From the NCBI GenBank assembly GCA_019915135.1, contig JAHLMK010000009.1, positions 806,001 to 870,000 on the forward strand: a stretch of 64,000 bases of DNA, given 5' to 3'. This stretch comes from Strobilurus pachycystidiatus. Taxonomy: Eukaryota; Basidiomycota; Agaricomycetes; Agaricales; Physalacriaceae. Below, piece after piece: positions 4,043 through 48,429 of this stretch. Each line of letters begins with the position of its first letter. The first letter of the stretch is position 1. The notes under the pieces were generated by a model that saw nothing but the letters and a program-made list of their open reading frames with translations, did not search any database and had not been told where the DNA came from. The position numbers and the translations under genes are program-made.

Positions 4043-4211
4043 GTGCCCGCTTGACTGGTGATGGGGGAAGTGCAGGCAAAGACTCCGTGACAAGGCGACG
4101 TCGATCCTCGGTGGTACGTTGAACGGAAATAACGCCGTCGTCGTTCTCGTTGTCGTCCTCGTCCAGAGTCGCAAGAAAAACGCCGGGCGGGCGCTTGAGG
4201 GTTTTGCCCAT
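4043..4211 (-). pseudogene. Truncated N-terminus of a possible KDZ-type transposase gene
   Basis: An ORF beginning with ATG at 4211 on the minus strand reads about 56 codons (MGKTLKRPP..., then an acidic stretch, then PPSPVKR) and is cut exactly where the family-1 LTR ends at 4042. From memory, fungal KDZ (Kyakuja-Dileera-Zisupton) transposases often begin with a similar segment ending in PPSPxKR. TET/JBP genes are reported to travel with KDZ elements, and this ORF starts only 89 bp after the stop of the TET/JBP-like gene on the same strand. The catalytic part is absent here, so the assignment is tentative. Confidence 0.45.
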
Positions 4212-24520: not shown

Positions 24521-24959
24521 TAAGGACCTCCACGAGTCAATACTCAAGTATACTCTTGACCCGTGACACGAGTACTCATGCTTCAAAACCAATACTCGTG
24601 ACTCTTCTTTGACTTGACTCATACGGGTACGGATCAAGACGAGTACGGGTTTAATGGGTCAATACTCACGGATACTCTTGCTTTTCAAGTGTATATCATT
24701 CCATTTATATAATGAATGACTATCATATAGAAGTTATTGATTAAATATACACAGAGGATTCACAAAACATTCATTTACTCAAGAAATATATGATGATACA
24801 CCTATTATGAAAATTCATGTCTCCAAAACTCATACTCGCGACCCATCTTTGACTTGACTCTTCTTGATCCGCGGATCAGAACAAGTCATACTCATGAGTA
24901 TTATGACGAGTCAAGTATGCGAGTATACTCTTGACTCTTGATACTCATGGAGGTCCTTA
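24521..24959. mobile_element. hAT-like MITE (439 bp), copy 1
   Basis: TIRs are TAAGGACCTCCACGAGT and, at the other end, the complement of TAAGGACCTCCATGAGT. The 8-bp target duplication ATCGATCC is at 24513-24520 and 24960-24967. Subterminal regions are full of short GACTC/GAGTC-type words. No coding capacity. Removal with one TSD restores the MULE frame (FIDP-AFIPPG). Confidence 0.9.
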
Positions 24960-26589: not shown

Positions 26590-28284
26590 TGATACGCATT
26601 GTAGAATCCTAGTGCCAGAACCAGGGAATTTTGCGATTCCTGTAGGAGTCTATGCCAGGATTTCCAGTCACAGCACAATGACCAGAGAGACACACGGAGA
26701 AACTACCTTAACGCAGGCAAGTCTCCAGGACTAAGGGATACGCGCCTTTAGGACGCGGTATGATCGACCGATCATACTCCTTAACTCCGAATATCATTAT
26801 CCAAGCGTTGTACTCTTAAAACCAGGAGTTCATTCAACCGTGTCGGTCATGCAATGACAAGTGCCTACCAGAAATAGCACTACGGCAAGTACCCAGGCAG
26901 GAGATACTCTACCAAGAAGGTTCAAGGAGTTTACTCGTGCTAAGTCAGAACTCGCGCGACCAAGAATAGATCAAAGGAGAAGATCTCTCTTCCGGGCCAT
27001 GGCGCCTACGGAATAGTGATCTCCGCTCCGACGCCCCGCACCAAAGAAAACGGACTTCGATCCGTCGCCGCCGATCACTAAAGATAGACCTGGCTAAAAG
27101 GCCCGATCATGGACCTTGTACCTCACTGGAACTCACATATTGATGTGGCGTCACTGAGTTGTCGAAAACGAATCACCTTCCAAGCGCTAAGGATAAACCC
27201 AACCAACGCCTAAAGACACGAAAGAACTCATTAAGGAGTTTTGCCAAGACAAGCGGAACCTCGGGAGACAGAAATAGACTTAAGGAAGAGCCAGATCGGT
27301 GGTGTGGCGCACTTGGCGCTGACCAAGTGTTCAGTCTTCTCCCGGGTCGGCTGTTTCGAACAGGGATAGCCAATCAGGACGCTAGTACAGAATGACTCGA
27401 CCTCCGAGAGGCCCGACGAGTAGTAAACCCGCTTACAGTACAGAATAGCAGGAATAGTATAAAAGGCCAGCAAGCGCCAGTAGATAGGTAGCTTAGTGCC
27501 CCCACAGTATCCGCTAGTAATACGCAGTCGCTGTAGTGAATCTAACTCGAGTTTCGACTCAACTTACTCTGAATTTGAGAGAACCCAAAAGACCTTGAAA
27601 GCCCCAAAAAGACCTTAGAACCATTTAGGCGATATCAGGTGTTAGCAAACTCCTTGAAGAACTCATAGGTTCCTATCCTCCAAGTCACTAAGACAATACC
27701 AAACGACACCACTTGGCGTTAGACCCTTGTGTTCGTTAGAAGGCCGGGTTGCAAGTAGTTCTGCCTTGCAATCACGCTCTGTTGTGAAGTATTCGCCTTT
27801 GAGGAGTTTAGTTGAGTTTGAACGAGTGTTGTTATCGTCTGAAACACCTTACGGAATCTTTGGTCCCAGTCCAAGACACTAGAAGTTTGGTTTAAGGACA
27901 AGGAAATCGCCTTACTTGGTAGCAGTCCAGTAGCATAAACACCTACGGTAGCGGCCTGCCATAAGACAATCACCTTGTACAAAAGAACGATCAATAAGAA
28001 GGAGCTACATTGCCTCGCGCTGTTTAAGGTCTCCGTACGTTGTGACTTCGGCCTACGACTTTCAGATTATCTTGTTCGACTTTGTGAATCAATCTCCCTA
28101 CACCCCCTAAAACTACTCGAACGCAAGTTCGGAATACATCTCTATTGTTCCAATACCAAAAGTACTTGTTCCTTTGAACAACTACACCAGCCTCGCTCCC
28201 ACAAGGAGTATTAGTGAGATATAAGGATAGATAGGATAGATTTCATAGTCCCCTTTTAGAGGTCTATTTCGAACGTGCATATCA
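26590..28284 (+). repeat. Gypsy 5' LTR (1695 bp)
   Basis: TGATACGCAT...GTGCATATCA, with a TATA box TATAAAAG at 27460-27467. Confidence 0.92.
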
Positions 28285-28357: not shown

Positions 28358-30214
28358 TAAATTCCAAACAACGACCTGGCTGCTAGGAACTCTGAACGTT
28401 ATACCAACAGTCAGAACCAAGCAAACCCGCCACCACCAAAAGCAAAACCAGTCATTGCAGGATCATCAAGTCCTACAAACTCTGGGATAGCAAGTCGGCT
28501 TCGAACCAAACGACCTACAGCCGGATCTCTCTTCAACGGAACTCCCCAAGAAGTTGCTGCAGCTCAAAGGCGTTTAGCGAACCCGTCAACACCAAAGTCC
28601 AAAAAGTCGAAACGTGGAACAAAAGTACCACCGACGCCCCAAGCATCTACTAGGAGAAGAGCTACTTCAGATCCTGAAACACCTTCCCGAGCTACTACCA
28701 GCCAAAGGCAATCTTCAGCCTCCGAAATCTCGCCTAGTTCTACGAGCTCCACACCTTTTGGAAGTCCTCTAACTAGTTTAGAAGACGACGACAGTTTACC
28801 ACCGATTCCTACGTTTATTAACTTCGGAAACTCCAACCCACGAACCAACACTATGCCCGCAATGGCTGCCGTTAGAAAGTTAATCCCTTCTGACGAACTC
28901 AGCGATGAGGCAAAAGCAGAAATCAAGGACAAAAAGGTTCCCATACCTTTCTCCAACAACGCCCCCAAATGCAAAGGCAAATCTGGAGAAGATATTAGGG
29001 AATTCTTCGCGACTTGTGACTGGATCTTCGATGTCTCGAACGTCAAGGAACAAGGAACCAAAATGGAGATGGCTGCCTTCTACGCAGGCCATGAACAGAG
29101 GAAACGCTGGCACCGACATGCAGACTATGCAAAAGGTGTTTGGGCAGACTTCAAGGAATCAATCTTAGCCTCCTACTCGAAGGGTAAGAACGATCCGGAG
29201 TATGTCCCTAGCGACCTCAAGGACGCTTTGGAACCTTACATCTCCCGGCCTGTTAATAACAAACAGTATTGGGAAGCGTTCTCGCGCGAAGTGCTCCATA
29301 TCCTGGAAGCTTTGATTCAGAGTGGAGAGGTAACCAACAAAGGTGCTATTGAGTATATAAAGTCCTCCCTTACGGAAGGAATCTGGCACAATGTCCTAGG
29401 AGATCTGAGGCAGGAAGTGTTGAAGACAGCAGTCGCTGGAACTACTCCGACGTATGATTTTACCTTGGATCAAGTAGCCAAGGCAGTCTCCAATTACTTC
29501 CTCACGGACAAATGGGTATCTGGTCCCCCGACCACGAATGCGTTTTCCAGGGACTTAGTCCCTATGCCAACGTCGCGGGTCAAGACCGAGGAACTGGACG
29601 AATACCTGAACCGTATAGCCTCGCTCCAGGACGTTATCCAGAAAGGAGAGAAAGATCGAGAGGAATCTAGAAAGAATGATCAGAAACTCTTGACGGCAGT
29701 CCTGGAGAGTCTGCAGAGGACCAACATTCAAGGTCTGCGTTCACAAGGCTATGTACAAGAAACACCTAATGTGTATTTACAAACTCCAATGAATGGCGTT
29801 TCGCTTCCGACCAATCTGCCTAACGGGATCTATAAGACTCCGCAAGGTGCGATTCCTCCAGGCAACAAGTTTGTAGTAAACGATGGAAGATGTTATTTCT
29901 GCCGGGATGTGGGGCATATAATCGCCAATTGTCCGGTGAAAGAAATGTGTGAAACCCAAGGTCATATATTCAAACCAGGGGGGACAAACATCTACCACTT
30001 ACAAAATGGACAGCCCATTCAAAGGACCAATGCGAAGCAACCGCTAAGTCCTTGGGAACAGGTACAGAAATACCAGCAAGAAAATGCAACCAAGGTCTCC
30101 GCATTCCAATCCCAAGAAGATGAATTTGCGCCGGATCCTTCGGTATATATGCAAATGACTCCCCAGGAAAGCGAGTTCAGTAGTGAACCATTTTCGGGTT
30201 TCGGCAAGGCTTGA
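28358..30214 (+). CDS. gag: Gag-like polyprotein with CCHC zinc knuckle
   Basis: The frame is open from 28358 to the stop TGA at 30212-30214. The first ATG in it is at 28853, which would give 453 residues. The 165 codons before it are free of stops and Ser/Thr/Pro-rich, so translation may begin at a non-ATG codon or from a spliced leader. Within the 453 residues, an N-terminal helical capsid-like region contains FFATCDWIFDV and RKRWHRHADY. A coiled, charged stretch follows, and then a zinc knuckle CYFCRDVGHIIANC (C-x2-C-x4-H-x4-C). The stop overlaps the ATG of the next ORF (TGATG, -1 frame), a typical termination-reinitiation arrangement. Confidence 0.85.
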
Positions 30215-31389
30215 TGAAGGAAGGGGTGCCTAGTGCACAGACTCCTCCGGAGAGCCAGTTGACTGTTCAAACTCGACAAAGTAATAAAGATAATCATTCC
30301 AAACCGGTTTCAACACCGGAAAAGATAAAAATACCTTGGCCTCGGGACCGGGTCTCCGTGGTAATACCTCCTAAAGCCCCGGTATCGCCAAAGGTAACCT
30401 TCACTAAACCTGAAGTCACCCAAGAAATACCTCCTGTGGATCAGGAAATTCTTGAGGAGATTCTGGCTATGGAAGAACCTGCGCCTGCAGTGCAGCCTAA
30501 GGTAGATTCAACTCTACCTTCGAGTACACCAACGAACCAGAAGACCTTACACCCTCAGCAGAAGGTCAAAAGTTTCCAACGCCGCAGCTTAGCGGAAGAA
30601 TTGCTACACAAGAATCCGAGCTGGAGAGAAGCATGGAAGTTCTTGCTTCCGGAAGCTCTTTTAGCAACGAATCCTCCGTGGCAGCAAAGCATATCGGACT
30701 TCATTAGAAAACGAAATGCGCCGGTTTCGGTACTCCAACAGGAGGAATTGACCGAAACGGTACAAGACGACTACCAACCGGAGTTATACTCAGTTAACTT
30801 ACAAGCACGAGACAACTTGCCGATTGGAGGAATTGTAGTTCACGATGCGGTGGAACAGTTCATAAACCTCACTGGAGGACAATATACTGGACCATTCCAC
30901 ATGACTACGGGAAACATTGCACCAGAGAACGCTGATCTAAGGACTTTCTGGCCTATGATAAACCGCAACGGAAAGAAGGAAAGTCTCATTGACGGGGGTT
31001 CTCAAATCGCCTCAATCTCGCTGAAAGCTGCGTTAGAACTAGGGGTTTCTTATGATCCCAACTTCAAAATAACCATGGAAAGCGCGGATAAAGGACGGAC
31101 TAGTACACTTGGGTTAGCCCGCAATGTACCCTTCGACTTCGAAGGGATTGTGTACTACCTCCAGTTGCATGTTCTGGAGGACCCCGCCTATGAAGTCCTA
31201 TTAGGTAGACCATTCGAGATTGTATCCAATCTGGTAATTACGAACTTGTCCAATGGAAACGCCTTGGGGACTCTGACAGATAATACCAATGGCAAGAAGT
31301 TGACCATACCGTCGTACCGACGAGGACAAATACCTAGGCATATGTTACCACCGGGGCAACAGGGTTTTCACCTGGACTCAAGGAAGTAG
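30214..31389 (+). CDS. Aspartyl protease ORF of the Gypsy element
   Basis: It starts at ATG 30214, overlapping the gag stop, and runs to TAG at 31387-31389 (391 residues). The first part is a Pro/Gln-rich linker. The protease core is seen as SLIDGGSQIASIS (Asp in DGG where retroelement proteases usually have DSG or DTG) and, about 90 residues on, a hydrophobic flap and VLLGRPF. It would release the mature Gag and Pol proteins. It is -1 relative to gag, and the RT frame is again -1 relative to it. The slippery-looking heptamer at 31362-31368 lies inside the overlap with the RT frame (31338-31389). Confidence 0.8.
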   Translation: MKEGVPSAQTPPESQLTVQTRQSNKDNHSKPVSTPEKIKIPWPRDRVSVVIPPKAPVSPKVTFTKPEVTQEIPPVDQEILEEILAMEEPAPAVQPKVDSTLPSSTPTNQKTLHPQQKVKSFQRRSLAEELLHKNPSWREAWKFLLPEALLATNPPWQQSISDFIRKRNAPVSVLQQEELTETVQDDYQPELYSVNLQARDNLPIGGIVVHDAVEQFINLTGGQYTGPFHMTTGNIAPENADLRTFWPMINRNGKKESLIDGGSQIASISLKAALELGVSYDPNFKITMESADKGRTSTLGLARNVPFDFEGIVYYLQLHVLEDPAYEVLLGRPFEIVSNLVITNLSNGNALGTLTDNTNGKKLTIPSYRRGQIPRHMLPPGQQGFHLDSRK

Positions 31390-34300
31390 GAAACGCCTAC
31401 GGAGAGGCGGTGTTGATCCTGGAAAGATCACCTAATGGTAATGTAGAAGTCAAGCAGACATGGGTACCAGGAGAAAATGAAGCACACTTCCGAGAAGGAG
31501 CCTTAACGTCCCTCTACCTGAAGAAATCTCCTGCGTACATAGACAAGGCGGCAAAAAGCCTTAGGAAACAACATGCCTTTATGAAAGCCTCTACGGTGCC
31601 GGGAACTGTCCCAGCTAGCCTGGTAACGCCTCGGGGTTTATTAAAAGAAATCAACGCAACCAAGGTACAAGGATTTCGAAAGGTGTTTAACATAAAGGGA
31701 ATTGCCGAAGATCAAGAACGAACTAAGTCCCACGCCACAGTAACCATGAATCTCTTCTATGGGGTACCACAGGAGTTGCACAAATCATTCTCAGGACTTT
31801 CAGTGACGCTACCTAAAGATTATGTGACGGAAGCACAGGACAAGTTCCTGGAGTTGGAAAGTCAACGTCCAGTACGAGGCGTGTTTGCCGGGAAAAAGTA
31901 TAAACCGATGGCGCTGAAAACCAAAGCCCATCTGGGGACTCTACCCGAAGAATTCAGGATCAAACGACATATCAAAGGCGATCCTCTAGCAGGAATGCCT
32001 GAACTCAGTCCAGATCCCCCGCCCTTCGTACCAACTGGAAGGTATACTGCGGAAAGACGTGAACAACTACAAGCGGACCACCCTGGAGATTTTCTGACTT
32101 CGGTGGAAAGACGAATTGTAGACCAACTTATGTGTGGACAGAATGCGGGATTCGCCTGGGAGGAAATGGAAAAAGGACATTTTGACCCAGAGTACTTTCC
32201 ACCTGTCGATATACCCGTTATTCCACATACTCCGTGGGTGTTAAGAAACATACCTATACCCCCAGGAATCTACGATGAAGTCTGTAAGATAATCAAGCAC
32301 AAACTAGACTCAGGCGTATATGAACCTTCGAACTCTTCATATCGCTCAAGGTGGTTCTGTGTAGTGAAAAAGGATGGCAAGAAACTCCGTTTGGTACATA
32401 GCTTGGAACCTCTTAACGCGGTAACCATCGCACATTCAGGGTTGCCTCCTGCTACAGAGGAGTTAGCTGAAGCGTTCGCAGGAAGAGCCTGTGGAGGTAC
32501 CCTGGACTTGTATGTCGGGTATGATGAACGGCTACTGGCCACTGCCTCTCGCGATATGACTACCTTCTCAACACCTTACGGTGCTTTACGATTAAAGACT
32601 TTACCTATGGGATGGACCAATTCGGTTCCGATATTTCACGACGACGTTACAACCATTCTAATGGATGAGATACCGGCGTTCACAAGACCTTACATCGATG
32701 ATGTACCTGTCCGTGGTCCAGCCACTAGATATGTACAGCCGGATGGAAGTTATGAAACGCTTCCGGGGCATCCAGAAGTTAGGCGCTTTGTCTGGGAACA
32801 CCTTCTAAATATGAATCGTATTATACAACGAATGAAATATGCCGGAGGTACCTTTTCTGGACATAAAGCCATCATATGTGCGGAAGAAATAGTAGTCGTA
32901 GGACATGTCTGCACTTATGAAGGAAGGAAACCGGCAGAAGAAAGAGTTAAGGTGATTTCTGATTGGCCACCTTGCAAGGCACTGACCGAAGTCAGAGCTT
33001 TCCTAGGGACCGCGGGGATCTTCAGGGCCTTCGTGAAAGACTACTCGAAGAAAGCCTTACCTCTTACCCAGTTGACTAAGGACATAACAAAGTTTCAATG
33101 GACGGATATTGAACAAGCTAGTATGGACCTCCTCAAGGAAGCAGTTAGGACTTGTCCGATGCTAAAACCCTTGAATTACGAATGGTCAACTCCGATCACC
33201 TTGTCGGTAGATACTTCTTACCAAGCGGTAGGATATTACCTATCCCAAGTAGATCCGGATGACCCAAAGAAAAGGTACTATGCCAAGTTCATGTCCTTAA
33301 CGCTCAACGACCGAGAAGCCAGGTACTCCCAAGCGAAGAGGGAATTGTTTGGTCTGTTCCGGGCATTGTCCGCGTGTAAGTACTATCTCCTAGGTTGTAG
33401 AAAACTAGAGATTGAAACAGATGCTAAGTACATCAAAGGGATGCTGTCGAATATTGACTCCCTAGCCAATGCCAACCTACAAAGATGGGCAGAGGAGATT
33501 TTGATGTACCATTTCAAGCTTATACACGTACCAGGAAAAGTCCATGGTCCAGACGGTCTTAGCCGCCGTCCTGCTTCGGAGAACGACGAAGTAATACCCA
33601 GACCCGCTCAAGGGGATGAGGACGATCGAATCAATAGCTTTGAATATCAAGAACCTGAGGACCTTCCGACCGAAGACAAACCTCTGGGGTTTGAGACATT
33701 CAGATATGATATTGTCATGATGTGGCCTCACCGCAACTCAAGGCCCCCCACTTTGGTCACACTTTGGCGTCCTGATGCTACGGCTACACAAACCAGCGCC
33801 ACACCGGAAGATGCCGAGAGATATATCAAGGGGTTGAGAGTTCGATCCCTTATGGCGACAGAACCGGGATCCTGGGGTCCCGCCCTTGTCGGGCTTCCCG
33901 CCCTCCCGGATACACTTTGGAGCAAGCGCACATGGTGTAAGACACCCCGGGAATATACTTAGGCCGCGTGAGTCAGGCGGGAGTCGGTACCCGACCAAAC
34001 CCGCCTTCCCGACCAATGGGCGGTCATCGATCTGTCGGGCGGTCATCGGGATGTCGGGATCTCCGTCATCCGCAGCGTCGGACCACTCCCGACGCATCGG
34101 GAGTATGTGGTAGAAGCTTCGAGAAGAGGAACGATGAGCAAGCATGGGATTAGTATAAATACAGAGACAGCGTTGTACTAGCTACTCAGACTTCGTCCTT
34201 AACCAGTTTTCCCCCATACAACTCCGTTGGGCACTCTGAGCTCTCCGTGGTAGGACTCACCCACATGTCTCCCTTCGATACCTCCGTCAACGTCGTGGAC

Positions 34301-37300
34301 TCCGACGAGAGAAGGCTCTTCGACGCCACACCTGGGACTAGGTCCGGCGGCGAGCCTTGTACCTTGGGATTAGGTTCCTACGGTATCTCGGTCTCTGACA
34401 AGATGGATGTGCGACCGTCGAGGGACCCTACGACTGGTACAGCACGACCAGTTGAGCACGATAGGAGGATGTACGTGGTACGCTCGCAGGAAAGCTATGG
34501 GTTGACTACAGGGGTAGTCTCTCATGAGCGAGTCCATGTCACGGCGGGACCAGGTCGTAACAATAGGACGAAGTCTCTATACTGCCCACGTACCACTACA
34601 TCGGAAACTCCCCCCTCCCCCGGCGTTGGGGTAACGCCTCCAATCACCACAACCTCCGACACTATCCCCCCCCTTGTACGAGCTCGCAGAACCGAACATC
34701 GAGTACTCTCCCTCCTTAGGGAGTTGACCATCCACATCGCGGAATTCAAACCAACAGTACGATCAGGTCCTACTCAATACCGGAGCCTTCTGGGCAGAGC
34801 TGCATGGGTCATAGACGTGGTCTATAGGTTGCTGGGACTAGAGGAAGACTGGGTTCTTCTTCGGTCTCTGGTGAACGGACATATCCCCATCATGGCACGA
34901 TGTATGGAAGTTCTGTGGAGAACCCCCCAACATCTATCTCGACACACGAAAGAAGGATTATGCCTTCTTCAGGCAAGATATCTACGGGGGCCACTACGAC
35001 GTATACGAACCCCGACATTCTATACCGAGCCACGCCTAGATCTCACGGTGTTCTACCACCCCCCTTCCCTCATCCTGGACCCCTGGGCCGTGCATCTATA
35101 CAGCGCAAAACAAACTTGCAACACCCCGCACCACCTACGTCTCCTATACGGAGTGGAATTCGAGAAATCCACGAACCCCGTCCAACCCTTGGATCGAGGA
35201 CTCATTCTCTTTCAACACCCCGTACTGTATTCCGACAACGGAAAACCTTTCCGCACAAACCAGGAATAAAACCACCCAAACGATATCATGGATCTCCTCG
35301 TGGAGGAGAGTCCTGACGTGAAATGGAAAGACCGAAGAATAGGTTTCGAGCCGAGCAGGGTAGCTCATTCTCTTCGAAAGAGAAACACAGTCGAGGACTG
35401 TCGTAATAAAAATCCAGATCCACCGGTCAAAAGGAAAATCCCCATACCATGGAACGCTGCGCCACCTTCCGACGAGGACGAGCGTCTATCACCCATCGGC
35501 ATGGCCGCAGGAACACCTCCGAAACGAGCACTCGCATCATCCGGATACCTGATCCTAAAGGATAAGTTAGACAACAGAATATCCCCGGGCGCGATCAACC
35601 ATCACGCAAATCAGGAACATTAGCCGTCACCACTAGTACGTGTTTGTTAAACATACGCGACGCGCCGATCACAACAAACGACGCGATCAAAATCCCAGAG
35701 TGGGGGGTATCACAAACAAGAAATGGTATACGCCGTACGCGAACTACAGGAAAGCAAGAAAATCCCCCGACAGGAGCTCCTCGACACCCTACCGAACGAA
35801 ATCCATCGCTCCCAGCCACCACTCCTCGGTCACCTCCTCCCACTCGCTCACCATCCCCATCTCGGATAACCCCTCCGTCTTCACCTTCTCCTCCCATCGT
35901 TTCCCCTCCTCCCCCTCCGTCGAGGCCCAGAAAGCCGTCACTACGTCGCGGCGGGACAAGGAACGCCAGAAGTACCGGAGCGGGAGATGGAAGTCAACGC
36001 TTCCACGGATGATAACATAGGGAGGGAGTTCCTCCGCCACTGGCCCCGTCTGGTCAAAACGAATACAAGGAAAAGAAAGAATAGGCTCACCAGGAGGCAA
36101 CAAGAGTGCCCATGCGCACACGGCCAGCGCGCAAGACGTATCACTACCCTGGGGCGGCACGAGCGAGAGAGGACTCCACGCCGCCGGAGGAAGGAACTCG
36201 ACGTCCTTCGCGAAGACGAGCGCGGCACATAGCAGGGTAAACTAAAAAAGGAAGCGTACCCACAACCCCAGACGTCCGGTCAAACAGCCCCAGCGCGGAA
36301 TGGTTCAACAACTTACCAAAGCCAACCATTCCGACGACGACAAATGCCCAAGTCCGAACGAATTATTATTCGTCAAACCGTCGTCTACGGCGATGATACA
36401 GCGTATCCACTCCTCCAGAACGAGGCCCGGGATTCGCGCAGGGCGCGCGTTGATGCGAAAGCCGCGATGATTGACAACCGGGGAGGCGTCAGACGGCGCG
36501 GCTGTCGAACGACGCGAGATCAGAGCAAGCAAGGAGGTGGGCATCGTCGAGGGGCGTAGGAGAGTGGTTCTGGGGACCTTCTTCGGAGCCGCGCCATTAT
36601 AGCTGCGCGCACAAGCGCTCGTTCCCGCACCCAATCTCTGGGACTTCTGGGATATCAGCAATAGGCTTTCAAGAAGCGCACCTGGGTCCAGAGAATAGAC
36701 TCACTTGAATGATTCTGCAGATCATTCCGCGAGACCCTGGGGTCTGTACCTCAGATGGATATCTGAGGGTGCAGATATGGGGTCTTGAGCACTCAGATGG
36801 GGGTTTGGACTCGCAGGGAGTCCTGGCTGCCCGGAGAAGACACAACCACGGTACCGAGCGCGTGGCGCGGGTGCTGTTCAGAGCTCGGGGAGCTCGAACG
36901 ACGAAATCATGACCGATGCCGGCGGCAATGAAAAAAAAAAAAAAAAAAAACAATTTCTGTACGATCAGAGGCGCATTCTCGAGGACATCTCAGGACGAGT
37001 ATCGAAAATATACGCCACACAAAATCGATCACGTGACCCAGACAACAAAACATCGTCTTTACGATACAAACACTTCTGTCTATTCAGAATTCTCTCCAAA
37101 CGCGTCTTCATCGAGGAAAACGCGTCTCGGCCCTCCCGTAGCAGGTTCCGAGCCATCACGCCCTCCGCCGCGACTACACTTTTGCTCTAACAAGGCTCGG
37201 GGAGTCTTGTAAAAAGCATCGACGCGACCGTAGGAGCCCATAAAAAGGGGATCACCCTTTCGTTTCTCGGGACGAGAAACTTAAAAAGGGGATATTGTCA

Positions 37301-39687
37301 TGATGTGGCCTCACCGCAACTCAAGGCCCCCCACTTTGGTCACACTTTGGCGTCCTGATGCTACGGCTACACAAACCAGCGCCACACCGGAAGATGCCGA
37401 GAGATATATCAAGGGGTTGAGAGTTCGATCCCTTATGGCGACAGAACCGGGATCCTGGGGTCCCGCCCTTGTCGGGCTTCCCGCCCTCCCGGATACACTT
37501 TGGAGCAAGCGCACATGGTGTAAGACACCCCGGGAATATACTTAGGCCGCGTGAGTCAGGCGGGAGTCGGTACCCGACCAAACCCGCCTTCCCGACCAAT
37601 GGGCGGTCATCGATCTGTCGGGCGGTCATCGGGATGTCGGGATCTCCGTCATCCGCAGCGTCGGACCACTCCCGACGCATCGGGAGTATGTGGTAGAAGC
37701 TTCGAGAAGAGGAACGATGAGCAAGCATGGGATTAGTATAAATACAGAGACAGCGTTGTACTAGCTACTCAGACTTCGTCCTTAACCAGTTTTCCCCCAT
37801 ACAACTCCGTTGGGCACTCTGAGCTCTCCGTGGTAGGACTCACCCACATGTCTCCCTTCGATACCTCCGTCAACGTCGTGGACTCCGACGAGAGAAGGCT
37901 CTTCGACGCCACACCTGGGACTAGGTCCGGCGGCGAGCCTTGTACCTTGGGATTAGGTTCCTACGGTATCTCGGTCTCTGACAAGATGGATGTGCGACCG
38001 TCGAGGGACCCTACGACTGGTACAGCACGACCAGTTGAGCACGATAGGAGGATGTACGTGGTACGCTCGCAGGAAAGCTATGGGTTGACTACAGGGGTAG
38101 TCTCTCATGAGCGAGTCCATGTCACGGCGGGACCAGGTCGTAACAGATATCGATACTAGGGGAGGCTACAGCCAGGAAATAGCTAGAAGTCCCTTGCCAA
38201 AGCATATGAAAGTATCTAAGGCAATTAGGACCTCCGCGCTAACTGGTATCAAGGACATTGAGGAGTGGATGGAGATCGAGGAGTTCCCTAGCTTAGTAAA
38301 GAGTAAGCGAGAACGCCTTTGGGAAAGTAGGTTGCCAGATCTCCAGCCACACTTGGTCGGGAGTAAAGTCCAGAAGGATGAAGACTTCGAAAGATGGAGT
38401 CGGGACTTTTCAATCAGACACGAGAAACTATATAGGTCTCACTTAGATGGAAATCTCCGCCGTGTACTCCTACCGAAGGAACGGATTCCGATTTGCAAAG
38501 CTATGCATGACAGAGCTGGTCATAAAGGTCAGTACTCGGTGCTTCAGCTACTTGCCAAACGGTTCTGGTGGCCAGGGATGGAGGTAGACATACGGTGGTA
38601 TGTGCGATCTTGCCTTATATGCCAAAAGCGACAGAAACGAAACATAAAGATAGCGCCAACCATCACCTCTACACCTGGGATATTCGAGAGGGCCTACATA
38701 GATACCTTCCGAATGCCCAAGGCCGGGGAACATTCAGCCAAAAAGAAACAACCATCCAAGTGGGCTGGGTTCAACGCTGTTACTGTGGCAAGGTGTGGTC
38801 TGACAGGTTGGCCAGAAGCCAAAGCTCTCCGAGATGAAACAGCGGAAACACTAGGAGAATGGATCTTTGAGGACATTCTCTGTCGCTGGGGCTGCATCAA
38901 GGAGATTGTAACGGACAATGGCCCAGCTATCAAGAAAGCCCTTAGACACATAGAGGAGAAATATGGCATCACGGGTATCCTGATTACCGCCTATAACAAA
39001 CAGGCAAATGGTAAAGTCGAAAGAGGACATTGGGATATTCGCCAGTCACTCTTTAAGGTGTGTAAAGGAAATCCGGAACATTGGCCGGAGTATCTACACG
39101 AAGTCCTATGGGCAGAACGAATCACTATCAAAAGGAGTATAGGAACTTCTCCCTTCCATGCTGTAACGGGCTGTGAACCTATAATGCCTATGGACCTGGT
39201 GGAGATTACTTGGCTGGTGGACATGCCAGATCACCTTGTATCGCACTCGGATTTGGTTGCACTCCGAGCAAGGCAGTTAATAAAACACAAAAGTGATACG
39301 GCAAGGTTAAAGTCTAAAGTCCTTCTGAACAAGCAGAAGGCAGCGGAGAAGTTCATGGAGGAATTCAACAACAGCATTCCGTGTTATGTATTCAAAACAG
39401 GTGAATTAGTGTTAGTACGAAACACCCGGATTGAAGCCGAAATGAACGCCAAGTTTAAAGAACGCTTTATGGGACCTTTTGCGGTGGTTTCCAGGACATC
39501 CGCAGGAAATTATGTGGTATGTGAGCTGGATGGCACCATCTGGAGGGATAAGATAGCTCAATTTCGAGTAATCCCCTTCGTAGCCAGAAGGGACCCTATT
39601 GCTTTAGGAGAAACATTCTTCTCTAGGCTTAGGCGTATCAGTCGCGGAGTCGGAAAAGCGTTGGATATGATTGCGAAAACTACTTAG
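31338..39687 (+). CDS. pol: Pol: reverse transcriptase, RNase H and integrase (split by a family-2 LTR element)
   Basis: Coding parts are 31338-33712 and 38151-39687. The frame joins exactly when the insert and one GATAT are removed. The RT region has TTFSTPYGALRLKTLPMGW and the catalytic YIDD (about 32691-32702). RNase H follows with VDTSYQAVGYYL and IETDAKYIKGML. After the join the integrase has an HHCC zinc site (HDRAGH...CLICQ) and DDE residues in AYIDTF, IVTDNGPA and KVERGH. A C-terminal SH3-like beta segment (FMGPFAVV) and a basic tail complete it. No stop or shift was found other than the insertion. It has probably entered pol by -1 frameshifting from the protease ORF. Confidence 0.88.
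31362..31409 (+). promoter_or_regulatory. Candidate -1 ribosomal frameshift site
   Basis: G_GGT_TTT at 31362-31368 is in the correct phase of the protease frame for an X_XXY_YYZ slip, and a -1 shift continues directly into the open RT frame. A small stem CGCCT/AGGCG (31394-31398 with 31405-31409) lies about 25 bases downstream, farther than usual. Function is inferred. Confidence 0.5.
33713..34562 (+). repeat. Family-2 5' LTR (850 bp)
   Basis: TGTCATGATG...GTCGTAACA, with TATA box TATAAATA at 34154-34161 and one TGAGTCA (complement of TGACTCA) at 33969-33975. Confidence 0.9.
34563..37295. other. Internal region of family-2 element, no convincing gene
   Basis: A reading frame of about 340 codons begins inside the LTR (34247) and crosses into the internal region, but it is low-complexity and lacks motifs. 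Many overlapping frames of similar quality exist on both strands. A 20-base A-run at 36931-36950 lies 345 bp before the 3' LTR. Confidence 0.5.
37296..38145 (+). repeat. Family-2 3' LTR (850 bp)
   Basis: Apparently identical to the 5' copy, with TATA box at 37737-37744. Followed by TSD GATAT. Confidence 0.9.
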
Positions 39688-39770
39688 AACAAGAAGTAAT
39701 AACGATGAAAAAGTAGTAACGATAGAGGCCGTACCAAAAAGATTTGGATGCAAATGACAGTTAAGGATGC

Positions 39771-39858
39771 AAGACTGGCAGCAGAGGGACTCGAACCGGC
39801 GCTCGGGTTTGAAACCAAGTCCGAGACGACGCGCTCAGCCGTTGAGCCAGTGGTGTCC
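39771..39858 (-). other. tRNA-like sequence with A and B boxes inside the Gypsy element
   Basis: On the minus strand the A-box TGGCTCAACGG (39849-39839) and B-box GGTTCGAGTCC (39797-39787) fit the pol III consensus, and a 4-bp D stem GCTC/GAGC is present. The T stem is weak and the acceptor ends do not pair, so it is not a functional tRNA. It may be a tRNA pseudogene, a captured primer relic or an internal pol III promoter. Confidence 0.4.
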
Positions 39859-40187
39859 GAAATCTGGCAAGTGCTCTGACAGGATGACGGGGACGTCATC
39901 AGAAAAAGTAAAAAGGGAATAGAGGGACAACGGTCCCATTTATTCTAATGGCTATAATTTTGCAATAAAAATTAAATTTGGAGCTCTAAATACGGTACAA
40001 GAGAGCGTCGTAACGAGGAAATGGAAGGAAAAAGGGTCGTAGCCCCTTGAAAATAATGACGCGCACCTCGGGCAGGGCTGTGCCCGGCCACGAACGCGAA
40101 AGCTTAAAAGTGATGAGCAACGGAATTAATGTGGTAAGCGAAGAAAAGAAGTTCGAACAAGTCCGTTCACCTTCTACTGCGCCCACC

Positions 40188-42260
40188 ATGTCGTCGCCCG
40201 TACCCGCACCAAAACCCACCTCGGAGAAGGTAAGTTTTGGGCGAAAAACCCAAAAAGAACAGGACAACGAACTAACTTACCTAAAGGAGAAGTCGCCCAC
40301 CCCTGCGAAAGATGATGAACCCGCGCAGGAGCCAGAGGAACGCGACCAGGAGCGAGAAAAGGTGAGTAAGCCCAAAACGAACAAGGCAACAGGAGATTTT
40401 AACGCGTCCTAGGACAACCAAGAAATCAACACGCGACCAGATGAACTCCCGGCCCCACGACCGGTGTTCGACTACAGCGGATTCTTCTTGAACGACCGCG
40501 TACCCACGGCGCTCCAAGCAGCAGGCATCGGACTCGAGATGGCGCACTAGCTAGCATCGACGCCCGAGCGCACCCGTAAAATCCTGGAAGAGAACGACTA
40601 CAAAGCGTACCGCGCCAATGCGGTGTTTTGGGTGGAATTCCAGGATGTGCTCAGTGCGTTGGACGACCCAGCCGACCACCCTCTGGAGCGAGTCGAGATT
40701 GCCCTGACGCGTGCCATGGAACAAGTCGAGCTGGCACCAAGACAGAACGCGCCCCAGCCTCCTCTCTTCCTAGGAAACAGCCGTGCGCGCGCAGACATTG
40801 CCCTCCAACTCGAGGAAGACGACGCCCAGGTCTGCTTCCTCGACCCAGAGCAGTTGTGGGCCTTTGTACCACACACCGAAGTAGCCGAAGGGTTTTGGGG
40901 TCGCCTGATCCCTGAACTCAAGAGCGCCAACGCCGCCCAGCCAATCTACTTCTCATTTAGACATGTCCTAGACCTCTTAATCGAGGACTCGGCCACCTTA
41001 TGTCAGCTGCGACTATACGAACCAGACGCGCCGGAAGCCGCAGGACGCGAAGAGAAGGAGGGCGATCAGGGCGAAGACGGGGAACGTGTGGGAACGCCGC
41101 TGCGAACGATGCAGGATTTGGCCGCCGAGGAAGGCAGTGACCAGGAAGAAGACGAGCTGGCAACGAAATCCCCCACGCCGGTGGCCCCGCGACCCCGACC
41201 ACAGCCGAAACCCCACTCGCCAGCCAAGTCCATGAAGGCGGTGGAAGTTCCGGCAAGGCGACACATGGTAAAAGGGAAGGGAATCGGCCCCAAGACAGCG
41301 AACCAGTACGTTGTCCGGCGATTTATAGCTCCCTTGCTTCCAGCTAAACAACGCCCCAGACCTAAGACCATCGCCAAGGTCGAACCGCGAGACAAGGAAC
41401 CTTCGGAGGTCGAGGAGGACGCCGAAGGAGAAACCGAGGCCGAAGAAGGAACGATGGACGCCTCCAGCAAAATGACCAGGCGTGTTCCCCTGTACGACGA
41501 CGACGCACACTGTCTCGCCTGTGAGCAGCGAAGCGTCGTATGCACATTCAACCGGATGCGCTCGAGCGACCGCGGGAACAAGACCAGCTGCGACCAATGT
41601 TCCCTGAGTCGGGGGATCTACGGTCCATGCCTGCTCGTCTGGGACCGGGAGCCAAAGGCGCCAACTTGGATGAGTCTCGATGGGCGTCTTCGGGCCAAGT
41701 TGCAGAAACTGGCGCAGCCGCTGGTCAGCGACAAGAAGATCTCGAGCGCGCGTTATGTCTACCCTGCGCGTCGAGGAACGGCCGTCAAGTCGGAAGTGCA
41801 GGAGAAGAAAGAGGCAACGGCGCAGTCAAAGAAGCGTCGAAGGGAAGTCGAAGAGGATAGCGAGGTCGAGGTGGTCGAGCCCCCGAAGAAGAAGGAGAAG
41901 GGGAAGGCCAAGGCGAAACGAGCCCCGACCCCGGTACCGGAGAACGACGACGACGATGACCTCGAGGAGATCGAAGCCCCGCGTGCACGCCGAGAGTCGA
42001 CGCGTCGCGTCTCTCTCATGTCGCCCCTCCGCCTCGTCACGGAGAAAGAGAAGGCTGAGCAGGACAAGAAGCGAAGGGCCGCCAACGCCGGCGAAGGATC
42101 TTCGCGCCACACCGTCGCGCCCACCTCATCCGCGCGCGACTTCCTCCCCTCGATGGATCAACAAGAAGTCACCGACCGGGTCAACCTGATCCTGTCGTGG
42201 TACTTCACGTTGCCGCCCACCGCGCAGAAGAAAGTCAGGGAGATCATTGGCAAGAAGTAG
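40188..42260 (+). pseudogene. Accessory sense gene of the Gypsy element: Cys-cluster protein with introns and one stop
   Basis: Exons 40188-40229, 40287-40361 and 40413-42260 share one frame (655 codons). The introns (57 and 51 bp) have GTAAGT/GTGAGT donors, an ACTAAC-type branch site in the first, and AG acceptors. One in-frame TAG at 40548-40550 breaks the frame early in exon 3; from there an uninterrupted stretch of about 570 codons follows. The C-terminal half has CLACEQRSVVC...CDQC...C, the same Cys arrangement as gene E, then Lys/Arg- and Glu/Asp-rich tracts typical of nuclear proteins, and a final helix. It lies in sense between integrase and the 3' LTR. If splicing were complete in the genomic RNA these introns should be lost on retrotransposition, so their presence is notable. 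Confidence 0.65.
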
Positions 42261-42798
42261 GACTTCGTCGCGGGCAGTTTCCCCTTCGCCGCCGCCGCTT
42301 GGCTTTCTTAGAACAATTTACGAACATTTTATCTACATGTACATCTACCGCACGCACCCGCCCGACAAAAATAAAATCCGCTTTTCATTAAAAACAAGTG
42401 TGATTTTTATTTGAAGAAAGAAAAGGACCTCGAGACCTAAGGTGCTAAGGCAAAACGCCTTAAAAGGCCAAGTCCAGGCAGGGCAAACTTCTCAAAAGTC
42501 AAGAGGAGTTTCGAATAAAGTGTAAGGGAAATACAAGCGTGTATAAAAGCGAACTAAGGAGAAATTCTATAGGACCTGGCTAAGTAGACTAAACGACTAA
42601 GGTCTTTTATAGACTAAGGTGGTTAGACTTAGACGAGTAAAGGAGTTTCTATGAGGAAATAAGACTAAAAACGATTCCAATCCGGACCCACTGGGAGACG
42701 CGCTAAGCGTTCGTAGAAGAAACCCGAAGACCTAACATCAAGAATCATGATATAGTTCTCCAGGAGTTCGTAGTCCAGTGCGGAGGCGTTTGACCAGT

Positions 42799-43784
42799 CT
42801 ATTTCCCAGAAGGATGGAGTGACAAAAGACAAATGCTCATCGGCTCGCTACAAGCACAGAAGTTACAAGGTGTGCGAAGCGCGGGAAGGAGTTGACGAAC
42901 GGTGTTCGAAGGAACTTCAACGTGGGGAGCCAAACGCCTAAGACGAGTAGGTCGCATCAAGGCTCCCAACTTAGGAAAACCATACAAGGCAGAATTCACT
43001 CGCTGGAACTCCGGCCACCACTTCATAACGGTTACGATGGCCGGAGGCGTTTGATCGTATTGAACAGGGAGGATCCGCAAGGCGTTTGGATCGATAATCA
43101 ACTCGCGAAGAGTGGAATCGAATCCCATATAACCACCGAAGGTGGATTCCACCTGGAAGAAATAATCAGACAAGGCGGTTCTGGAGAAGGTGTTTGCGCA
43201 CCATGAACCGGGGAATAATGTCCTTCATCAAGTCGGGATGCACGCCCGGTATGTCCAGCAAACCATAACCAAGGAAGTTATCAAGGGCGAAACCGTCGAG
43301 GGTCCTTCCATTGACGGCTCGGAACCAAGACTTACAGAGCTCCACGGCTCCGTAGTACAAGGGAAAGAAGTACCGGCGAAAGCCAAGGTAAATGACGGGG
43401 TTTTCGTAGAAGGCGGGATCCCACATATACGCCAGACGACGCTGGAGTGGAAGTAAGCAGGCATAAAGGGCCTAAGGCGATGTTACGCACCAAGGTATAC
43501 AACAAATACCGCAGGGACGGGACATCCAAAGGCTTCCCTTCACCAAAATGAAGTACTGGCTCTTCTAAGGCAGCTACCGCCGCGGTATCGTCAACCGTGG
43601 AGAGAGTACCATCGTCATAGCGGATAACGATGCTGAATCGCCGAGCGAAGGTATACAATTCCAAGGCGCTGGTCAAGGCCAATTCGCCAAGTAGGGCCTC
43701 GAGCTCCTCCGGAGCAGGTTGGTTGTGCAAAGGGATGCCGCGAAGGCGAGTGTCAGAAAACGAAGGAAGAATCGGGATAGGCAT
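42799..43784 (-). CDS. Accessory antisense gene 1 of the Gypsy element
   Basis: Minus-strand exons 43784-43491, 43441-43202 and 43152-42799 are each multiples of three and give 295 residues. Both introns are 49 bp (GTGCGT...CAG). The start MPIPILPSF is followed by an acidic helical region, then an aromatic-rich segment (FRRYFFPLYYGAVELC) and a Pro/Arg-rich end. No known domain. It is convergent with the sense Cys-cluster gene. Splice sites on the minus strand would be invisible in the sense genomic RNA, so these introns can survive retrotransposition. Confidence 0.6.
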
Positions 43785-44236
43785 GGCGGTTATGGCAAAA
43801 CCAGAAGCAACTCTGGCGTTTTTATAGAGCGCCTGGACCGCCGTGACGATCCAAGGAAAAGGAAGAAATAGCCTAAGCGAGTCTAGGAATAAAGTTTAAG
43901 CTACTCCGAAGACCATTAAAAAGACCTAGGCACTGTAAAAACTTAGGATGAACGATTCGACGAAGGTGATCGGGAATTCCCGATCGAACTTACTTAGTTG
44001 ATGAAGGCGGTCACTGGACTTAAGAAGGATCGCCGGAGTTCTAACGGATCGCGCCAAAGGGGTAAAAACAAGGGTAGTCGTGTTGAGACGGCTGTGTACT
44101 AAAGTAGCTACGGGAAACAAAGTGCTACCGGACCTACAAGGGATAAAACGAAATCCGAAGCCAGTGTAAACATGAAAGGAGAAAGGGCTAGACGACTGGC
44201 TAAGACTTGGAGGAGGTTGAGACCACCTTTAGGAAA

Positions 44237-45744
44237 CTACTGGACTTGGTCCACTCCGTCTAAGGCGGAAATGTACAAATCCCGAGTCGACAAAACGAAC
44301 TGAATACGACCCCGGATCTCATTGTAAGACGAGATAATGTCGTGGCGGTATTGACGCTCCAACTGGAGAAGTCCCGGCGAAATATTGGGATCATCCACAC
44401 CGGCCAAGCGAGTCATGCGCTTGTGAACTTGCGTCAAGGCGGCCTGCAAACCGTTGATGTACTGGGGTGCTAATATCCAAGAAGTCAGAAAGGAGAAAGA
44501 CAGATCAAAGTAACAGGACGTACCCGCATCCAATTGCTTGAGCAAGACCGGCTCGATCATAAAGGTCGAAGGACGAGCAGCCTTAGCGGCGCGGCGAGAA
44601 AGGTCGTCGGGGAGCTTGCGCTTAGGAGGAAGTTCCTGACCGTTGAGGGATCCCAAGGTTTGCATGGCGCGCTGATAAACACGGGCGTTAACGTCCATCT
44701 TGGGTAGGGCAGCAAAAGGAAGATAACGCACAGAAGTGCTCTAAAGGGGAATCCCAATCAGAACCAAGTAAAGGCAAAAAGGCCAAGAGTAGTAAACGAC
44801 TCACCGCTTCCGCCTCTTTGAAAAGGTTGTTGGACAAGGACATCTGTTGGAAGAAATCAGCCAGCTGAAGGCGAAGGGCTATAAAGGAATTGAGCGTACG
44901 TTCTCACCAACGACAATCACGGACTCCTCACCGTCGGTGTCGGCTTCTGCAACATCGTCAGCCCAATCAAAATACTCGCGCTTGAAGAATCGCGCACGGC
45001 CATCGGCATCCATGTCGATGTCTTCTTCCGCCTGTTTCTCCATAGCGTCGGTGATAACTTCAGGAGATTTCTTGCTTTTTCCCTGTGAAGAAGTAAGGCG
45101 TTAAGAAAGACCTAATGAACAAGTATGACAAACCTTGACCTTGGGGTCCGGTTTAACGAAGACGTTGGTCGGATGCATGGGATGATCAGTAGGCAAAGGC
45201 TGGAACTGCGCGTTCGACATCTTCTTGGCGGTGTTCACCAAAGGTTGGAAGATGTGCGCGATGTGGTGCGAAGGCGTTTGAGGATGAATGCCAAGGAGAT
45301 GGAGCGTCAATCCGAGATAGTTCTTGACGTTGTGGAAGAACAAGACAAGGTCGGATGGGACCTTCGAGTCGGAAGGAACGGACTTGATGTCGGTGTTGGC
45401 CATCTAGGAGGAATTAAGGAAACGACGACATGAACAGAAGGATAAAAGGGACACACCAAGACCGCCTCCATGATTTTGTCGACCTGCTCGGTGATCTGCT
45501 TGGAAAGTTCGTTGTTGAGGCAGGCCTTTTTGATGTCGAGACGGTTGAGGCGAGGGAGAGCCATCGACATGCGAAGCCCGAGGACCGTAAAAGTGTCCGG
45601 GGTGGTCGCAGGAGGATCGTATTCCACGGAATAGGCGAGGACGGCGACGGAAGCGTCCTTGTGAGTGGCGATCTCCTTCGCGGAAGGAAGGTAAGGGACC
45701 GAAGGCAAAAGACGAGCGCAGGAAGTCCAGGATTTGGGAGCCAT
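44237..45744 (-). CDS. Accessory antisense gene 2 of the Gypsy element
   Basis: It starts at ATG 45744 (MAPKSWTSCARLLPS). Clear exons are 45744-45463 (94 codons), 45403-45134 (90 codons) and 45082 to about 44908. Further exons lie around 44860-44800 and 44710-44530, and the last runs from about 44470 to the stop at 44237-44239 (ends ALDGVDQVQ). The joins of the middle exons are not fully resolved, and one simple model reads a stop. Features are an acidic DIDMDADGRA stretch, a KRKLPDDLSRRAAKAAR basic motif like a nuclear signal, and a helical C-terminus. No recognised family. It is in tandem with antisense gene 1, ending 453 bp upstream of its start. Confidence 0.5.
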
Positions 45745-45929
45745 GTCGAAGGAAAGTAAGGATGAAAACGCCCAGGAGATAAAACAGGCGTTTTTATAGG
45801 CGAGCAAGGCGAAAATTGCTAAGGACCTTGATAAAGATAGAACGGCAAAAGGTCTGGGGCTTTGCACCAAGGCAGAAGGAATAAGCGTTTTCGCGATACT
45901 ACTAGGATGTCGGGGACGACATTTCAAAA

Positions 45930-45941
45930 GTCAAGAGGAGA
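45930..45941 (+). other. Polypurine tract of the Gypsy element
   Basis: The purine run AAGAGGAGA directly precedes the 3' LTR. A near copy of this motif (AAAAGTCAAGAGGAG) also occurs at 42495-42509, 3.4 kb upstream. Confidence 0.6.
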
Positions 45942-47636
45942 TGATACGCATTGTAGAATCCTAGTGCCAGAACCAGGGAATTTTGCGATTCCTGTAGGAG
46001 TCTATGCCAGGACTTCCAGTCACAGCACAATGACCAGAGAGACACACGGAGAAACTACCTTAACGCAGGCAAGTCTCCAGGACTAAGGGATACGCGCCTT
46101 TAGGACGCGGTATGATCGACCGATCATACTCCTTAACTCCGAATATCATTATCCAAGCGTTGTACTCTTAAAACCAGGAGTTCATTCAACCGTGTCGGTC
46201 ATGCAACGACAAGTGCCTACCAGAAATAGCACTACGGCAAGTACCCAGGCAGGAGATACTCTACCAAGAAGGTTCAAGGAGTTTACTCGTGCTAAGTCAG
46301 AACTCGCGCGACCAAGAATAGATCAAAGGAGAAGATCTCTCTTCCGGGCCATGGCGCCTACGGAATAGTGATCTCCGCTCCGACGCCCCGCACCAAAGAA
46401 AACGGACTTCGATCCGTCGCCGCCGATCACTAAAGATAGACCTGGCTAGAAGGCCCGATCATGGACCTTGTACCTCACTGGAACTCACATATTGATGTGG
46501 CGTCACTGAGTTGTCGAAAACGAATCACCTTCCAAGCGCTAAGGATAAACCCAACCAACGCCTAAAGACACGAAAGAACTCATTAAGGAGTTTTGCCAAG
46601 ACAAGCGGAACCTCGGGAGACAGAAATAGACTTAAGGAAGAGCCAGATCGGTGGTGTGGCGCACTTGGCGCTGACCAAGTGTTCAGTCTTCTCCCGGGTC
46701 GGCTGTTTCGAACAGGGATAGCCAATCAGGACGCTAGTACAGAATGACTCGACCTCCGAGAGGCCCGACGAGTAGTAAACCCGCTTACAGTACAGAATAG
46801 CAGGAATAGTATAAAAGGCCAGCAAGCGCCAGTAGATAGGTAGCTTAGTGCCCCCACAGTATCCGCTAGTAATACGCAGTCGCTGTAGTGAATCTAACTC
46901 GAGTTTCGACTCAACTTACTCTGAATTTGAGAGAACCCAAAAGACCTTGAAAGCCCCAAAAAGACCTTAGAACCATTTAGGCGATATCAGGTGTTAGCAA
47001 ACTCCTTGAAGAACTCATAGGTTCCTATCCTCCAAGTCACTAAGACAATACCAAACGACACCACTTGGCGTTAGACCCTTGTGTTCGTTAGAAGGCCGGG
47101 TTGCAAGTAGTTCTGCCTTGCAATCACGCTCTGTTGTGAAGTATTCGCCTTTGAGGAGTTTAGTTGAGTTTGAACGAGTGTTGTTATCGTCTGAAACACC
47201 TTACGGAATCTTTGGTCCCAGTCCAAGACACTAGAAGTTTGGTTTAAGGACAAGGAAATCGCCTTACTTGGTAGCAGTCCAGTAGCATAAACACCTACGG
47301 TAGCGGCCTGCCATAAGACAATCACCTTGTACAAAAGAACGATCAATAAGAAGGAGCTACATTGCCTCGCGCTGTTTAAGGTCTCCGTACGTTGTGACTT
47401 CGGCCTACGACTTTCAGATTATCTTGTTCGACTTTGTGAATCAATCTCCCTACACCCCCTAAAACTACTCGAACGCAAGTTCGGAATACATCTCTATTGT
47501 TCCAATACCAAAAGTACTTGTTCCTTTGAACAACTACACCAGCCTCGCTCCCACAAGGAGTATTAGTGAGATATAAGGATAGATAGGATAGATTTCATAG
47601 TCCCCTTTTAGAGGTCTATTTCGAACGTGCATATCA
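45942..47636 (+). repeat. Gypsy 3' LTR (1695 bp)
   Basis: It matches the 5' LTR except for about three visible substitutions (for example near 46011, 46205 and 46448). TATA box at 46810-46817. Followed by TSD CCGT. Confidence 0.92.
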
Positions 47637-47693
47637 CCGTACTCGTCTTGATCCGTACCCGTATGAGTCAAGTCAAAGAAGAGTCACAAGTAA

Positions 47694-48155: not shown

Positions 48156-48429
48156 ACAAGTATTGGTTTTGAAGCATGAGTACTCGTGTCACGGGTCAAG
48201 AGTATACTCGAGTATTGACTCGTGGAGGTCCTTATTCCGGTTGGCAGAGAACTGTGCAAGCCGGGAGCATCGTTTTCGTTCGCGAACAGAGGCATCACCA
48301 ACGACGTGGGAGGCGTCAACGTCGAATGCTATGTTTTTTCGAGCCCGGCCTGTCCCTGAGTAGATCACGGATGTTTTCTTCTTTTCCGGCTCAGTCTTGA
48401 TGATTCAACTACTTTACTTTACTTTTCAA

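Follow-up and report, generated by a model that had tools for sequence, protein, structure and literature searches.

The window, a stretch of 64,000 nucleotides from the basidiomycete Strobilurus pachycystidiatus (G000:C9:806001-870000; host genome of 51.8 Mb in 61 contigs), holds a Ty3/Gypsy retrotransposon bounded by long terminal repeats (LTRs) and measuring, by arithmetic, about 16.6 kb after subtraction of a nested element. The assignment to this class is based on the LTRs, on the duplication of the target, and on the order of the pol parts, reverse transcriptase (RT)-RNase H then integrase on one strand, which is that of Ty3/Gypsy elements. The two LTRs differ at 3 of 1695 sites, in agreement with the near identity from which the first-pass annotation of the window had inferred a young element. 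Three intron-containing genes lie between the end of integrase at 39687 and the start of the 3' LTR at 45942, as had also been proposed: one sense gene (S) and two antisense genes (AS2 and AS1), with splice models kept across copies (Table 1). The ends of the element are fixed because a 4-bp target duplication, CCGT (26586-26589 and 47637-47640), flanks the LTRs, and the target has an inverted counterpart (24593-24960) that covers both flanks with an overlap of 4 bp. As the element sits within one copy of an inverted repeat, the empty site is known and the 4-bp duplication confirmed; copies of this repeat around the insertion are found at 24593-24960, 26274-26589, 47637-47692 and 48156-48234.

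S (positions 40188-42260, three exons) is predicted to encode a protein of about 654 amino acids (aa). Copies of the element are referred to families A (with A1 and A2), B, C and D, the window copy being one of family A. The sense gene had been recognized correctly, but its 569-aa frame in the window is only part of the gene, since the window copy is stopped in frame at codon 85, which is open in the other 12 family A copies. Nine of the 13 family A copies retain a full-length exon 3; lift-over of S failed at exon borders for L013-L016, and only the exon 3 frames of those copies were used.

Comparison of gag, integrase, AS1, AS2, LTR and S shows that S alone occurs as deep allelic classes exchanged by recombination, on backbones ~94-99% identical in integrase, AS1, AS2 and LTR. 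The swapping of this hypervariable gene between backbones, as well as the broken state of the window copy, had been missed by the first-pass annotation. In family A, synonymous divergence (dS) is 0.081 (A1-A2) and 0.054 (A1-B) for integrase, for which 13 of 15 copies were usable, 0.044 for AS1 and 0.083 for AS2. Exon 3 of S gives 0.45-0.57 in intact pairs, and ~1.4 in the N-terminal third (first 260 codons, and likewise the first two 100-codon windows) when A1 is compared to A2; the mean of 0.71 for S includes the broken copies L018-L020, and the intact-pair values were computed separately. In family C (L025, L026 and L028) dS is 0.62-0.92 for S vs. 0.009-0.077 for integrase, AS1 and AS2, L026 and L028 differing by 0.009 in integrase and 0.62 in S. 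Identity among the three family C copies is mostly 95-100%, but falls to 74-91% inside S and its near flanks (the last bins overrun the LTR). The 34 S matches found in this family are 564-617 aa long, contain no internal stops, and are 81-100% identical to L026. A further case is provided by family B copies L021-L023, in which an A backbone (93.7-98.1% identical over aligned blocks) carries an S 36-37% identical to that of A and 33-35% to that of C, a full-length frame differing at nearly two thirds of its residues on the same backbone.

Divergence sets in ~200-300 bp ahead of S and ends near 41400 in A2, at 42300-42450 in B, and ~300 bp past S in C. Patches of 99% identity are found inside S between classes. 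In the S tree the classes are held together in 86-100% of 200 bootstrap trees; A1, A2 or B are held together in 0 of 200 integrase trees, although the few branches with strong support there would not by themselves require the S classes to be mixed. Substitutions in S are of all six types, with no single-base bias, and long divergence plus recombination fits the diversity of S better than targeted mutation for this reason; the ratio of transitions to transversions is 0.84-1.52 in S vs. 3.8-4.1 elsewhere. S is probably not tuned to its own LTR or capsid, because the LTRs of copies with other S classes are 98.6-99.3% identical to those of the window, and gag is uniform, as judged from two copies (99.4% identity to the window gag for an A2 copy, 98.6% for a B copy). 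In an A2 copy (L037/L038, C18:567200-571500) the gag frame is split by a ~470-bp insertion near the match to window position 28824, and no part of the sequence where the gag of the element of L022 was expected (L036) could be aligned to the element.

Table 1. Features of the Ty3/Gypsy element and of its accessory module, in window coordinates
Feature	Position	Strand	Remarks
5' LTR (1695 bp)	26590..28284	+	3 mismatches to 3' LTR; TG..CA ends
gag open reading frame (ORF) with CCHC knuckle	28361..30214	+	zf-CCHC E 0.0055, below curated cut-off
Protease ORF (weak)	30187..31389	+	gag-asp_proteas E 0.015, below cut-off
RT and RNase H part of pol	31338..33707	+	RT_RNaseH E 3e-16
Nested LTR element	33708..38145	.	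LTRs ~855 bp, 100% identical; GATAT on both sides
Integrase part of pol	38146..39687	+	Integrase_H2C2 E 4.5e-19; GPF-type C terminus by eye
S exon 1	40188..40229	+	predicted gene model, copy lift-over
S exon 2	40287..40361	+	predicted gene model, copy lift-over
S exon 3	40413..42260	+	hypervariable; swapped in family B; in-frame stop at gene codon 85 in window copy
Six-cysteine cluster of S, C-x2-C-x6-C-x15-C-x2-C-x9-C	41511..41630	+	cysteines 1-5 invariant in 8 S proteins
AS2 exon 3	42799..43152	-	gene model, lift-over, family C model
AS2 exon 2	43202..43441	-	gene model, lift-over, family C model
AS2 exon 1	43491..43784	-	start codon at 43784; gene model, lift-over, family C model
TATA-like site TATAAAAACGC before AS2	43816..43826	-	11-mer search of window
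AS1 exon 6	44237..44469	-	gene model, lift-over, family C model
AS1 exon 5	44524..44740	-	gene model, lift-over, family C model
AS1 exon 4	44805..44878	-	gene model, lift-over, family C model
AS1 exon 3	44932..45082	-	3' boundary least certain; gene model, lift-over, family C model
AS1 exon 2	45134..45403	-	gene model, lift-over, family C model
AS1 exon 1	45457..45744	-	start codon at 45744; gene model, lift-over, family C model
TATA-like site TATAAAAACGC before AS1	45788..45798	-	11-mer search of window
3' LTR	45942..47636	+	paired with 5' LTR

S, AS2 and AS1 form a standing accessory module in a lineage of long fungal Gypsy elements, and are shown by the ratios of nonsynonymous to synonymous divergence (dN/dS), 0.05-0.19 over all three genes, to be under purifying selection. 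Between A1 and A2 the ratio is 0.11 for AS1 (36 pairs), 0.05 for AS2 (42 pairs) and 0.18 for S (42 pairs, broken copies included). Within family C it is 0.06-0.19 for AS1, 0.13-0.16 for AS2 and 0.14-0.17 for S, integrase giving 0.09-0.14. All values for the module are far below 1, and neither they nor the many copies that carry the module bear out a chance capture of host DNA.

The module travels with the element, as had been claimed, being found in many copies and, in the same order, in two further families with integrases 80% and ~66% identical. The genome search gave 110 match rows for S, corresponding to at least 61 places, at least 58 places for exon 3 of AS2 and at least 86 for integrase. 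S places were merged by hand, later pieces of one element and fragments (C1:5441804, C1:5467667) being omitted. Each of the 61 S places has an integrase within 15 kb, an AS2 within 8 kb, or both. A single AS2 place (C1:5469066) is without such neighbours in the merged lists, and adjoins, at 1 kb, an S piece dropped in merging. Since neither S (61 places) nor AS2 (58) was seen outside an element context, the capture of host genes from this genome was rejected, and the earlier suggestion of captured host genes is, as far as a recent capture is concerned, not supported.

Both S and AS2 are present at 15 of 18 A/B integrase places. At the 53 places of family C, both are found in 33, S only in 4, AS2 only in 1, and neither in 15. 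Three family C places (C3:412 kb, C16:944 kb and C21:770 kb) feature integrase and an S of 615 aa with no AS2 match nearby. The module is old; it is dispensable in cis, because 15 of the 53 family C places are without S and AS2. The four of these 15 that were read (L029, L030, L033 and L034) share one deletion junction, marked by 11 bp of shared sequence, and have lost the 3' portion of AS1 together with all of AS2 and S. Their integrase lies in long open frames, and such copies may spread by using helper copies, or without the module. No S or AS2 match was obtained at the 15 integrase places of family D at the sensitivity of the genome search. In the one D element that was read through (L031 and L035), AS1 (E 1.7e-17), AS2 (29% identity, E 8e-13) and S (E 0.002) are found with order and strands kept; a second S-like six-cysteine gene lies ahead of S, and the tandem pair (L031:3130-3870 and L031:5706-6524) precedes AS2 and AS1. 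No LTRs were identified for this element over the 13.3 kb that were read.

AS2 runs on the minus strand from 43784 down to 42799 (3 exons, 295 aa predicted), AS1 from 45744 down to 44237 (6 exons, 410 aa predicted). The predicted splice models of both hold across copies. In a lift-over set of 17 copies (the window, 12 family A copies, L009-L020, and four of family B), 12 have an uninterrupted AS1 and 15 an uninterrupted AS2, the GT..AG borders being retained in those; failures concern L010 (last exon unmapped), L018, L021, L023 and L024 for AS1, L023 and L024 for AS2. Intron lengths vary between copies by frame-breaking steps (51 or 55; 52, 53 or 54 nt). AS1 and AS2 of family C, at 61% and 52% identity, are 413 and 302 aa long and keep 5 and 2 introns in the same order. 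Each of the two antisense start codons is closely preceded, on the minus strand, by the TATA-like 11-mer TATAAAAACGC, which has no other copy in the window. Of the 12 family A copies retrieved, all show an exact match to the surrounding 13-mer ahead of AS2, and 10 show one ahead of AS1. In family C (4 copies) a TATA-like TATAAAA is found ahead of AS1 only; inspection of L026 revealed none ahead of AS2, and that of family D none ahead of either antisense gene. Pfam matches of AS1 are limited to Ino80_Iec3 (E 0.064) and Lsm_interact (E 0.13), AS2 has none, and TRP28 (PF04195) is found in neither.

The make-up of S suggests a nuclear protein, as previously noted, its six cysteines having a Zn2Cys6-like spacing and being flanked by basic and acidic tracts; no domain is recognized in S above cut-off. 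The module may serve, as suggested earlier, to silence host defence or to control expression of the element. Five cysteines and a CT motif are common to all eight aligned S proteins, including the two of family D. Similarity to Zn2Cys6 proteins in Pfam and the Protein Data Bank (PDB) is suggestive only, the S profile aligning with the DNA-binding domain of AlcR at E 5.9. DUF7179 matches one S-like protein of family D at E 4.3e-4, below its cut-off. Searches of the PDB with the module proteins returned nothing significant, those of PHROGs no match for five S proteins, and one scan of viral contigs with integrase no relative. No homologue of S, AS1 or AS2 was found in the protein database at E≤0.01, in a search that is weak for spliced fungal genes and that in some cases scored only the ~8000 candidates sharing most words, so that the absence of relatives is not implied. 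Single-sequence structure prediction of the N-terminal third of S was unusable (mean predicted local distance difference test score 42.8).

Accessory antisense genes are already known from plant Gypsy elements. In the Retand lineage (Grande, RIRE2, Retand), antisense ORFs lie between pol and the 3' LTR, as stated in the available part of the source (PMC11963269). The fungal element shares with this lineage its non-chromovirus Gypsy type, a long region between pol and 3' LTR, and conserved antisense genes, possibly nuclear, as far as that part of the paper describes them (PMC11963269), in which the word intron is absent. Unlike in the Retand lineage, the antisense genes of the fungal element lack TRP28, number two, contain 5 introns (AS1) and 2 (AS2), and are accompanied by a sense gene, S, which is hypervariable and swapped. 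A published parallel to the exchange of S is that of Ty1 and Ty1', where, in the portion of the paper at hand, divergent gag sequences reside on one Ty1 backbone and are tied to self-encoded copy-number control (PMC7055915). In both cases one divergent, recombined gene block sits on a similar LTR-retrotransposon backbone, Ty1 showing subfamily-specific self-restriction; Ty1/Ty1' shows that a tie between such exchange and self-encoded restriction is possible (PMC7055915, same portion). LTR retrotransposons of bdelloid rotifers have an ORF3 after pol, the types of which differ between elements, and resemble the fungal element in this extra, variable gene 3' of pol; within families, however, ORF3 varies there about as much as gag and pol, and S far more than the rest here (PMC5408684, sections available). 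Additional domains in complex, multiply inserted elements are reported in a survey of fungal LTR elements, the word antisense being absent from it (PMC3248453), and some Tcn1-like or related elements are drawn with an additional ORF (PMC2864245, in part). In the openly licensed literature (subscription papers and Repbase lay outside the search) neither spliced antisense genes nor the swapping of an accessory gene were found described for fungal Gypsy elements.

A further difference from the bdelloid elements is that no enzyme domain was found in S. VANC anti-silencing proteins of the VANDAL elements of Arabidopsis are likewise element-encoded, family-specific regulatory proteins, yet are reported to act in a sequence-specific manner on the elements that encode them, whereas LTRs do not follow S class here. 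VANDALs are DNA transposons, not LTR elements. Immunity regions of lambdoid phages are exchangeable specificity cassettes in mosaic, otherwise similar genomes; these phages are unrelated elements, and operators were not identified here.

By analogy, the S classes, being old, constrained, coexisting and exchanged, look like self/non-self or immunity loci. Tentatively, and as the likeliest of the readings weighed, S is taken to be an allele-specific regulator acting in trans, comparable to the copy-number control of Ty1. S would be a zinc-binding nuclear protein endowed with allele-specific recognition, and elements of one S class would interfere with each other or regulate each other, in a form of copy-number control or immunity. 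A copy gaining a foreign S class would escape; rare classes would be favoured, and old classes would coexist, each of them constrained. AS1 and AS2 would have promoters of their own, in keeping with the TATA-like sites ahead of both, and need no LTR for expression; lying in antisense, they would have their introns shielded from the splicing of genomic RNA. Both might be constant partners or regulators in the process governed by S. Action of S in trans fits the finding that deletion copies without S and AS2 multiply. Rather doubtful is the broader proposal of an immunity-type locus in a eukaryotic retrotransposon, multi-allelic, under negative frequency dependence among its own copies, recombining between backbones and with the antisense genes as constant partners. 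If S does mediate class-specific interference, elements in one genome would act as competing strains with immunity classes. A fungal lineage retains three accessory genes over a large divergence, one with the pattern of a recognition locus, and the pattern of S makes class-specific interference between copies a testable question.

Several data weigh against S being such a regulator. There is no sign of positive selection inside S, dN/dS being 0.03-0.19 in the windows where it is computable. Zn_clus matches two of eight S proteins, at E 0.38 and 0.57, below cut-off, and the Zn2Cys6 identity is unproven. In Ty1 the exchanged block is gag and the restrictor, p22, a gag fragment; S is a separate gene with no similarity to gag (best E 3.4), for which restriction is only proposed, and selection would have more difficulty in maintaining self-restraint encoded by a separate gene. 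The pattern, finally, may reflect no more than a tolerance of the element for exchange of S. This is the core of the main rival, an account only slightly less probable, according to which template switching between co-packaged RNAs occurs everywhere, only S suits any backbone, and its diversity is a by-product that is not favoured. S is self-contained, lies at the edge of pol, is constrained and not positively selected, and is bordered by divergent blocks that reach near its ends, all of which permissive exchange would accommodate; the gag-pol-AS parts could be co-adapted. Such exchange does less well with the finding that two families have three or more S classes each (A1, two A2 types and B in one; L025, L026 and L028 in the other) on nearly uniform backbones, with the mosaic patches, which suggest repeated exchange within S, and with AS1 and AS2, which are accessory too and yet unexchanged in the copies compared.

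It is unlikely that S faces the host, countering or hijacking a polymorphic silencing or chromatin factor with classes that track host alleles. The basic and acidic tracts and the six-cysteine cluster would suit a nuclear role of this sort, and the partner of S may lie outside the element, as LTRs do not co-vary with S; old classes coexist, however, in one genome under purifying selection, with neither replacement nor an excess of dN. Selection of the insertion target by S, with classes partitioning genomic sites, is quite improbable: a gene adjoining integrase could steer it, but copies of different S classes share neighbourhoods, e.g. C11 977-1015 kb and C10 691-755 kb, with identities of S to L026 that range from 81 to 99%. 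Very little speaks for local hypermutation, resembling that of diversity-generating retroelements or repeat-induced point mutation, as the source of the S classes; the restriction of divergence to S and its near flanks would be expected, but the six unbiased substitution types, the transition/transversion ratios like those of old divergence, dN/dS values of 0.14-0.18 for S, and blocks common to classes that point to recombination are at odds with it. Last, an envelope-like nature of S, AS1 or AS2 is disfavoured and scarcely credible, since, despite the location between pol and 3' LTR and the fact that retroviral env genes vary and are exchanged too, the best 19-residue hydropathy means of the three proteins in one scan (0.74, 1.10 and 1.07) are below, and none near, the threshold for a membrane span, and the element is not errantivirus-like in this respect.

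The RT core gave no Pfam match at E≤1, a YIDD motif being seen by eye only, and no chromodomain is present at the C terminus of integrase among Pfam matches at E≤1, which separates the element from chromoviruses. A tRNA-like T-arm string noticed by eye at 39774-39860 was discarded, as no tRNA was called by ARAGORN (bacterial settings) or Rfam. The window copy is broken, because of the stop in S and of the nested 4.4-kb element which splits pol between RNase H and integrase. The latter (33708-38145) contains no long gag-pol frame. Its segment 34727-34879 shows 78% similarity to 6742-6894, which lies just within another repeated structure, and the two may be related non-autonomous elements. In region 1303-9675 a 1553-bp repeat is found in three copies (2490-4042, 4993-6545 and 8123-9675), two of which are 100% identical, in an arrangement that resembles an LTR-internal-LTR-internal-LTR array and contains a 119-bp tandem unit.

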